From Haloferula rosea (lineage in GTDB: Bacteria; Verrucomicrobiota; Verrucomicrobiia; Verrucomicrobiales; Akkermansiaceae): a DNA stretch of 60,825 nt. Positions 12,773 through 16,027 of this stretch are shown here, piece after piece. Every line of letters starts with the position of its first letter. Within the stretch, counting starts at the first letter, position 1. The stretch lies in contig NZ_JAENII010000019.1 in NCBI RefSeq assembly GCF_016595525.1, positions 1 to 60,825 on the forward strand, written 5' to 3'. Made by a program: the position numbers and the translations under genes. The notes under the pieces were generated by a model. It saw only the letters and a list, made by a program, of their open reading frames with translations, ran no database searches and was not told the origin of the DNA.

Positions 12773-15700
12773 ATGAACCAGTGCATCGCCATCTCCCTAC
12801 TAGGCTTCCCACTCCTCGGATCCCCCTTGGTCGCTCAGACGGTCAGCGTCACGCTCGATGAAAGCTACGGGGACTCCTACAAGGCGACCGCAACGGTCAC
12901 CAACGATACGACCGAGACCTTTGATTCATGGCTGGCCCACCTGCAACTCCAAGGCACGATCCGAAGCTTGTGGCGCGGGTTCATTCAGGATGAAGAAAGC
13001 ACGGCAGCATCCTTCCAATACGGGATTTCGAACGAAAGCTACAACGGACGGCTTCAGCCGGGTGAATCGACGACGTTCGGCTTCATCGTGGACGCCGACG
13101 ACGGGGCCTCCCTCCCACTCACCGGCACGGTCTCACCGGGTTGGACGCCGACGGACGATCCACAGCTCCAAGTCGCAGACATCACCGTCGTCGAAGGCGA
13201 TGGCGATGGCACCATGGCGGTCTTCACCATCTCTCTTTTCCCACCGGTCGACGATGCGACGGTCTCGGTCTCATATGCCACACAGGCCGGCACCGCCACT
13301 GCAGCCAGTGACTTCATCGATTCGAGTGGCAGCGTGGACTTCGCCCCGGGGATCACATCCCGCACCGTGTCAATCGAAGTGGTCGGAGACGATCTCGAAG
13401 AAGGAGAAGAGTTCTTCACTCTGGACCTCGCCGACGCGATCCAAGCCACGATTTCTCGCGCCACAGGGAGGGCGACCATCGTGGACGACGATGGTGACAC
13501 CAACCTGCCCGGGAAACCACAAACCGGGGCGTTCAACTATGCCGAGGCATTGCAAAAATCCATGTGGTTCTACGATGCCCAGCGCTCCGGCACCCTGCCG
13601 GAGGACTTCCGCATTCCATGGCGGGGCTCTTCGGCCACGGGTGACGGAAGCGATGTGGGATTGGATCTATCGGGAGGCTTCTATGACGCCGGGGACCATG
13701 TGAAGTTTGGTCTCCCACTGGCATTCTCGATGACGATGCTCGCGTGGGGCTCGGTGGAGTTTCCCCAGGCCTACGTGGAGACCGGACAGGACGATGAACT
13801 CCGCAGCACGCTCCGCTGGGCAAGCGACTACCTGATGCGATGTCACGTCCGTCATGAGGATGGCACCACCGTCGCCTTCTACGGCCAGGTCGGAGATGGG
13901 AATGTGGACCACGCCGTCTGGGCACCTGCCGAGACCATGACCATGGCACGTCCATCGTTCAAGATCGATGCCGACAACCCGGGTAGCGATCTGGCCGCCG
14001 AGACCGCTGCTTCCCTGGCAGCCAGCTCGATCGTTCTCGCTGCCGAGGATCCGGCCTATGCCGCCACGCTCTTGGATCACGCGGTGGCTCTCTACCAATT
14101 CGCGGATGCCCATCGCGGCAAATACAGCGACTCCATCCCGAACGCGGCCGCATTCTACAACTCATGGAGTGGCTACCAGGACGAACTCGTCTGGGGGGCC
14201 ATCTGGCTGTTCCGGGCAACCAACGACCCGGCCTGGCTGCAGAAGGCACAGACGGAATACGCCAATCTTCCCGGAGACGGGAACGGAGCGAAGTCCTTCA
14301 ATTGGGGTCTATCCTGGGACGACAAGGCCTACGGATGCTACGTGCTGATGGCATGCCTCGACGGCTCGGCGAACTACGTCGCTGATGTGGAACGCTGGCT
14401 CGACTTCTGGGGCGATGGATTCAACGGCCAACGCATCAACTACACCCCCGGAGGACTCGCCCACCTCGACCAATGGGGCTCCCTTCGATACGCCGCGAAT
14501 ACCGCCTTCTGCGCGCTGGTTTATGCGGATCACGTAGGTGAAGATGGCGACGGCTATGCGACTTTCGCCCGCAACCAGATCAACTACGCCCTGGGCAGTA
14601 ATCCACAGAATCGCAGCTATGTGTGTGGATTCGGAAACAACCCGCCGGTCAATCCGCACCATCGCAATTCCCATGGGTCGACCACCGGTAGTATTTCCCA
14701 ACCCACGCAGAACGAACACATTCTCTATGGTGCACTCGTTGGTGGTCCGGATGCCAATGACGGCTACACCGACGACCGGACGAACTTTACCACGAATGAG
14801 GTCGCCCTCGACTTCAACGCCGGATTCACCGGAGCACTCGCAGGCCTCTATCAGGAATTCGGAGGCTACGCGCTGACCGACTTCGGTTCAACCGATCTCC
14901 TCTACGTCACCGTGGATGACTTCCCTTCGGGACCGCACACCGACAGCACATGGAAGGACCTCTGGCCTGGGACCAAATGGGCCAATGGACCCGATGAGGG
15001 CCGGCTCTCCGTCGATGACCAGATCTCCTTCGACGGCAAGGGCAAATCCATCCGCTGCCTATACCCCCAAGGAGGGAAGCAGTCTGGAAACAGCGGTGCA
15101 CAATGGTTCGCCGACTTGAACGGCGAATACGAAGACCTCTACATGAGCTACTGGGTCCGCTTCGACGAAGACTTCGACTTCGTCCTGGGAGGCAAACTCC
15201 CCGGGTTGGGCGGCGCGGTCTCCTTCGAAGACCGGACACACGAATGGTCGGGTCGCTTGATGTGGCGCGAGGACGGTAAGGCCGAGTTCTACGTGCACGT
15301 CCCGTCCGAGAACAACTACGACCCCGGTGACCGCTTCTGGTGGAATACCGAAGGTTTCCAGGCAACCTTCATTCCCGGGCGATGGCACCACATCGAGCTG
15401 CGCATGAAGATGAATACCCCCGGCGAATTCGATGGCCTGATGGAAGGCTGGTTCGATGGAGTGAAGGCTGCGAGCTATCCCAACTTCTACTTCCGCGACG
15501 CCCCCACTCAGAACGCGAGCATCGCTTGGGTGTTCTTCAGCACCTTCTTCGGAGGAAGCAGCAGCAGCATCTGGGAAGCGAGGAAGGACGAGCATGCGTG
15601 GTTCGATGAGTTCACGGTCTCCAGAACCCGCATCGGCTATCCGGGGATGCCCTTGGATGTGGACTCGGACAAGCTGCCGAACGTTTGGGAGGCCCAGTTC

Positions 15701-16027
15701 TTCGAGAATGAAACAGCCGCCTCCGCCATCACCGACGATGATGGTGACTCCTTCAGCAACTATGACGAATACATCGCCGGCACGGATCCACTGGATGCCG
15801 CCGATCGATTCCGCATCGAGTGGGAGGCCGCTACCACCGGCACCAGCCCCACCCTCCGGACCGATGGACATTCGGGCAGAAGATACATTCTTGAGCGGAG
15901 TCGCAACCTGACCCAGTGGACCACCGATTCAGCGACCGAAATCCTCACGGACGACCAAGCCGTCGAGTTCCAACCAACCCGCGAGAACGTCACCGATTTC
16001 TTCAGAATCCGGGTCGAGCTCCCTTGA
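12773..16027 (+). CDS. Multidomain secreted enzyme: CBM2-like, Calx-beta, GH9 cellulase, PL14-like lyase, TSP3
   Basis: A 1084-residue protein. After a signal peptide (ATG 12773) come a CBM2-like domain (about 22-130), a Calx-beta domain (about 134-240, ending VDDDGD), and a complete GH9 catalytic domain (about 253-700) with DAGDH (305-309; catalytic-base aspartates), NPHHRNSHG (627-635) and [11 protein letters not shown] with the general acid E676. Residues about 705-955 resemble polysaccharide lyase family 14: [52 protein letters not shown] calcium-type segment ([20 protein letters not shown]) and a tail ending RYILERS...FFRIRVELP close it. Expected to cut beta-1,4-glucan and a uronan; the lyase assignment is less certain than GH9. 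The in-frame GTG 12737 lies inside the terminator and is rejected as start. Confidence 0.87.

Follow-up and report, generated by a model that had tools for sequence, protein, structure and literature searches.

This locus raises the question of whether one secreted protein carries two unrelated polysaccharide-cleaving catalysts, and which acidic polysaccharide the second of them would cut. It lies on contig NZ_JAENII010000019.1 of Haloferula rosea (positions 1 to 60,825, the whole stretch analysed, hereafter the window), where an initial annotation had described the gene at 12773-16027 as a GH9 cellulase fused to a PL14-like polysaccharide lyase. We consider it probable that the product is secreted and brings two catalysts to bear on composite algal walls, the uronan being alginate and/or beta-1,4-glucuronan. 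A reading with two activities is well supported by domain anatomy, as seen in the sequence.

In the mechanism that we propose, the CBM2 domain would hold the protein on cellulose. The GH9 domain would hydrolyse beta-1,4-glucan with inversion, D305 and D308 activating the water and E676 serving as general acid, and the PL14 domain, its cleft lined by K808, R828, Y840 and H842, would use beta-elimination to cleave a 1,4-linked uronan that coats or surrounds the cellulose. By tethering, a single molecule could remove the acidic matrix and attack the cellulose thus uncovered. Enzymes that unite two unrelated chemistries are of interest as a test of whether algal walls are degraded as composite materials.

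Two catalytic domains in one open frame

Domains were called with Pfam profiles judged against the curated cut-offs. The gene and its parts are as follows.

12773..16027, +, whole gene: secreted CBM2 - Calx-beta - GH9 - PL14 - TSP3/C-terminal protein, 1084 amino acids
12773..12838, +, residues 1-22, a hydrophobic stretch up to ...VAQ, judged by eye alone to be a putative signal peptide
12845..13117, +, CBM2 cellulose-binding domain, residues 25-115: PF00553 (CBM_2), 2.9e-8, over cut-off
13163..13486, +, Calx-beta domain, residues 131-238: PF03160, 5.9e-15, over cut-off
13538..14839, +, GH9 catalytic domain, residues 256-689 (D305, D308, E676): PF00759, 1.1e-152
15038..15613, +, PL14 domain, Pfam bounds residues 756-947: PF21294, 3.6e-34; active-site positions K808, S826, R828, Y840 and H842
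15734..15799, +, weak TSP3-type calcium repeat (TSP3_bac), residues 988-1009: PF18884, 17.6 bits against a cut-off of 25, below it
12721..12751, +, strong terminator-like hairpin of 13 pairs with a T-rich tail, in the interval that separates this gene from the upstream one

The frame is unbroken over 1084 amino acids counted from the ATG. An alternative in-frame GTG at 12737 falls within the hairpin (-23.9 kcal/mol, z -4.4), and therefore the ATG at 12773 is the likelier start. Secretion is assumed from the putative signal peptide. Of the accessory modules listed in the initial annotation, CBM2 and Calx-beta stand, while the calcium repeat stays below its cut-off.

The Glyco_hydro_9 profile (PF00759) is matched over its full length (1-444 of 444) with 509.9 bits against a cut-off of 27.7. 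The closest solved relative is Thermobifida fusca E4 (1js4; 583 bits, 434 of 434 query residues aligned), and the DAGDH and NEVA stretches of the two proteins are identical letter for letter. The motifs that had been pointed out in both halves were found in their places, with DAGDH at 305-309 and E676 within NEVA, and in PL14 GGKLPGLGG from 806 and FFSTFFGG from 921. The roles of the catalytic Asp pair in DAGD and of the general-acid Glu in NEVA are established for the GH9 family. Among 46 GH9-linked proteins, E676 is kept in all, and D305 and D308 are each kept in 43, the other three proteins, gapped here, being cut before these positions. A true cellulase domain in the GH9 half is supported.

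The Polysacc_lyase_14 profile (PF21294), whose use the initial annotation had proposed as a check, matches over 5-215 of 215 positions with 118.8 bits against a cut-off of 27. The region had been placed at 705-955; a PL14 domain is indeed there, with a shorter extent of about 731-948, and it has the PL14-type beta-jelly roll. It is not a concanavalin-like fold lacking the PL14 residues. The cleft Lys, Ser, Arg and first Tyr, which we take to be functional residues in AkAly30 and vAL-1, are all present as K808, S826, R828 and Y840. Where the second active-site Tyr (presumably Y142) is found in AkAly30, the window protein has His (H842). Of the 46 GH9-linked proteins, 45 retain the remaining four cleft positions, and PL14 is the most conserved domain. 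A PL20/PF14099-type lyase profile remained under its cut-off in the window protein (20.8 bits against 29.9). Most active-site positions being kept, the PL14 half is supported as a true PL14 domain.

A second difference from AkAly30 concerns a loop. In AkAly30 (5gmt) it is 23 residues long with two Cys, whereas all 45 GH9-linked rows have 14 residues and none has a Cys (P0052, described below, set aside; P identifiers denote database protein relatives). Polymannuronate (polyM) specificity of AkAly30 is ascribed to this loop, with Cys115-Cys124 and Gly118, in PMC8618178. For vAL-1, another PL14 enzyme, binding of D-glucuronate with contact through Arg116 is described in PMC3764139, and such binding also appears in the title of entry 3a0n. 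Arg116 of vAL-1 aligns with R828.

It might be objected that the GH9-PL14 joint is an artefact of assembly or annotation. Nothing was found in favour of this. The window frame is unbroken, and both domains are also present together in 45 of 70 relatives, which come from numerous contigs and sources. Since the fusion recurs in many assemblies, we rejected this explanation, to which we give practically no chance, and the annotated fusion of GH9 and PL14 in one frame is confirmed.

Relatives and natural variants

Relatives were searched for with the PL14 part as query, giving 70 proteins of about 596-1897 amino acids. Besides the 45 that also have GH9, six have CBM2 and no GH9 (P0006, P0047-P0051) and 19 have neither. 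The named sources of the fused relatives are Haloferula, Coraliomargarita and an Akkermansiaceae metagenome-assembled genome (MAG). A scan of named genomes found a relative encoded at 28 loci. Among the fetched loci (L identifiers), L004-L010 are fused and all seven are titled as Verrucomicrobiota groups, the GH9 of L009 being cut at its N end; non-fused are L003, from a Chloroflexi MAG, and L011 from Agarivorans, which encodes a CBM2-PL14-PL14 protein. PF21294 was found in 30 of 387 genomes of the phylum, and close fused relatives in 3 of 384 genomes of the class, the host's own included. This gene accounts for the sole PL14 match and the sole GH9 match of the own genome (G000; 4.68 Mb, 97.5% complete).

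Nature provides members in which one catalyst appears to be missing. At the PL14 site, within residues ~730-960, P0052 has T, S, L, D and Q instead of K, S, R, Y and H, while its GH9 is intact and shares up to 85% identity with that of other members. P0052 is, as judged from its residues, a GH9 enzyme whose lyase site is broken, a natural single-activity variant. The opposite loss is seen in P0006, which aligns to P0007 on either side of a gap spanning the whole GH9 (236-618 with 698-1080 at 86%, and 1-239 with 1-239 at 69%). Additionally, L003 (9725-10735), P0102 and P0103 are solo PL14s nested in the fused clade, secreted-looking by eye. In L003, tblastn found no GH9 at 1e-5; a stretch of about 25 residues, lying before its PL14, matches a GH9 profile (E 3e-4) and by eye resembles the NPHHRN...TQN stretch. 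This remnant makes a secondary loss of GH9 from a fusion likely in L003, though it is not proof. The family is a clean test bed, with both domains intact, the PL14 site broken (P0052) or GH9 absent (P0006, L003, P0102, P0103).

These variants bear on whether PL14 is instead a non-catalytic uronan-binding module, the protein then being only a cellulase. That P0052 persists with TSLDQ for KSRYH, and that the second Tyr is replaced throughout the family, would agree with such a role; the retention of the other cleft positions in all GH9-linked proteins but one, the conservation of PL14 above all other domains and the persistence of GH9-less relatives speak against it. We therefore regard it as very unlikely for the family. 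A lectin-like PL14 without catalysis was considered and found unlikely for 45 of the 46 GH9-linked proteins, and a non-catalytic module appears likely for P0052 only.

The second-Tyr position was read in 59 PL14 rows of the fetched loci: 46 have Tyr, 11 have His and 2 are partly readable. Nine of the His rows come with GH9, the others being L003 and the second PL14 copy of L011; L006 and L042 among them are identical in sequence. In a 92-row tree calculated without the second-Tyr column, 30 His rows and P0052 split off together (99/99; 100% of 200 bootstrap trees), and 23 GH9-bearing rows likewise lie on one side of a branch, L003 not counted, several rows being near copies. From the 76 database domain rows, 40 went into the first tree, which omitted the partial locus rows L046, L054 and L058; for the 92-row trees six more long-branch rows were dropped, vAL-1 included.

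Shorter proteins widened this picture. Of 120 listed among 129 hits, 25 have His (Gilvimarinus and Vibrio included), some of these being fragmentary or belonging to the fused or tandem clades, and 8 more have Lys or Asn. In a wider quick tree that took in 35 of the 120, the non-Tyr rows form one 47-row clade (Shimodaira-Hasegawa-like approximate likelihood ratio test, SH-aLRT, 97), with one Phe row apart. A tie of the His type to cellulose-binding or GH9 partners, at first strict in the fetched loci, was dropped since short proteins carry His too. The His-type PL14 is thus wider than the GH9 fusion, and the Tyr-to-His clade offers a defined residue for probing uronan specificity in PL14.

The neighbourhood and the nature of the uronan

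The surrounding genes in the window are as follows.

3260..4459, +, PF05426 lyase, a second uronan-lyase candidate; closest solved relatives 3nfv and 8bdq, 'alginate lyase'
4625..7330, +, GH78-type alpha-L-rhamnosidase, PF17389 5.9e-111
7648..9867, +, sensor histidine kinase (HisKA_3/HATPase_c, F5/8-type-C domain); a relative lies near GH9-PL14 in L010 (49%)
9864..10511, +, response regulator with LuxR-type output, by inspection; a 35% relative in L007 is Response_reg + GerE
10738..12666, +, protein of 642 amino acids with no Pfam family at E 1; internal repeats by eye
16041..17651, +, sulfatase, PF00884 1.2e-52; starts 13 bases past the GH9-PL14 stop codon
17670..19331, +, sulfatase, PF00884 1.4e-56; start taken as the first possible start codon, TTG
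19384..22074, +, GH78-type alpha-L-rhamnosidase, PF17389 3.2e-72

Two sulfatase frames and a GH78 frame come next after the gene, spaced by 13, 18 and 52 bases in turn. Rhamnosidase-like genes lie near GH9-PL14 in five of eight loci (the window, L004, L006, L007 and L010), of which L007 and L010 were called only by similarity to the window GH78 and L006 is a GH106; near GH9-PL14 in L005, L008 and L009 no rhamnosidase match was found. Two of the eight GH78 profile matches in the whole own genome fall in the first 22 kb of the window.

This neighbourhood would fit another reading, in which the PL14 half would be a glucuronan lyase (or one for glucuronate-rich, ulvan-like chains) acting on green-algal walls, not a brown-algal alginate lyase. 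Ulva walls contain ulvan, cellulose and glucuronan. The adjacent sulfatases and rhamnosidase, the recurrence of rhamnosidase-like genes in the loci, the D-glucuronate binding of vAL-1, the Tyr-to-His change and the missing polyM loop agree with it, as does the significant glucuronan in green algae mentioned in PMC4765187. Alginate lyase activity is, however, reported for the PL14 + GH9 type in PMC13235733. The own genome also has alginate markers, namely one PL7-type match (PF08787), three of PF05426 and one weak match each of PF07940 and PF14592, which make alginate use by the host possible. Furthermore, three of the eight loci have no rhamnosidase match, and sulfatases and rhamnosidases may be common generally in such genomes, our background count covering the own genome. 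We hold the green-algal substrate to be possible, if doubtful. Given the residue and loop differences from AkAly30 and the rhamnosidase and sulfatase neighbours, glucuronan is at least possible for the PL14 half.

A more specific proposal is that PL14s with His for the second Tyr and no polyM loop form a subclade with altered beta-elimination on beta-1,4-glucuronan or glucuronate-rich chains over cellulose, and that the window protein would be a green-algal (ulvan-type) wall enzyme expressed with the sulfatases and rhamnosidases, unlike the published brown-algal alginate tool. In this detailed form the proposal is rather unlikely.

Some further observations concern the surroundings. The PF05426 lyase at 3260-4459 may add another uronan lyase to this cluster; its relatives 3nfv and 8bdq presumably belong to PL38. 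Beside GH9-PL14, L010 has a relative of the 642-amino-acid protein (47%), and L006 and L008 have weaker ones (23-25%). The family of this protein and GH9-PL14 seem to share contigs, matched by equal length only: the lengths 10807, 9773 and 118141 recur for P0003/P0075, P0005/P0084 and P0002/P0079. That family is probably found beside GH9-PL14 on other Haloferula-type contigs. A frame of 165 amino acids at 1668-2165 matches only the GH78 C-terminal domain, overlaps the end of a sulfatase gene and looks like a rhamnosidase remnant. PF15892 has six matches in the own genome; we assume a link of this family to ulvan lyases, but it has other roles and settles nothing. Two of PF15892, one PF05426 lyase and three GH78 lie within 40 kb at G000:C33:371839-411407 (L106, L108, L060, L099, L101, L102), which might be another locus, apart from this one, for a polysaccharide rich in rhamnose and uronate.

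Comparison with known systems

The initial annotation knew of no characterised GH9-PL14 enzyme, and this no longer holds. Xu et al. (ISME J, 8 May 2026; PMC13235733) looked through CAZy for GH domains fused to members of alginate-lyase families; they distinguish four types, which they call convergent, and one of these is PL14 + GH9. One PL14 + GH9 representative was expressed, and alginate lyase plus beta-glucan/carboxymethyl-cellulose activity is reported for three representatives taken together. As in that type, both catalytic domains and CBM2 occur here in one chain; a joint attack on acid matrix and cellulose is likewise proposed there, with brown-algal alginate as the uronan. The window protein is a good further example of PL14 + GH9, and not the first.

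Several points weigh against the two-catalyst enzyme as we read it. The specificity loop of AkAly30 is absent, and His replaces the second Tyr of the active site. P0052 lost its PL14 site yet kept GH9, so PL14 activity is not indispensable everywhere. The scanned neighbours in L005 and L009 are housekeeping genes or matchless, and a wall-degradation cluster is therefore not general. Xu et al. give 'one or two CBM2' and place the non-GH5 types 'primarily' in Actinomycetes, whereas the loci here have one CBM2 with none to two Calx-beta and the named fused hits are Verrucomicrobiota; these differences leave room for a separate origin. Their representative is compared with the window protein by its published description.

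Other systems share parts of the design. CelAly of Aquimarina also tethers a cellulase and an alginate lyase in one secreted enzyme, but as GH5 + PL31 (PMC13235733). T. fusca E4/Cel9A combines, by its entry name, a catalytic with a cellulose-binding domain, while in the window protein PL14 comes after GH9. AkAly30, the PL14 alginate lyase of Aplysia, differs by the second Tyr, which is His here, and by the loop, here of 14 residues and free of Cys. Cip1 (3zyp) and the PL20 glucuronan lyase (2zzj) have the jelly-roll lyase fold in common with the PL14 half, and Cip1 is also paired with a cellulose-binding module (PMC3764139). The CBM2-PL14-PL14 proteins of gammaproteobacteria (P0047-P0051, L011) share CBM2 and a His-type PL14 (57-62% identical) but lack GH9; of their two PL14 copies one is of the Tyr type and the other of the His type, which suggests complementary specificities. 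In Agarivorans (L011:5058-10693), genes for a GH5 cellulase, PL14+CBM6 and CBM2-PL14-PL14 are consecutive.
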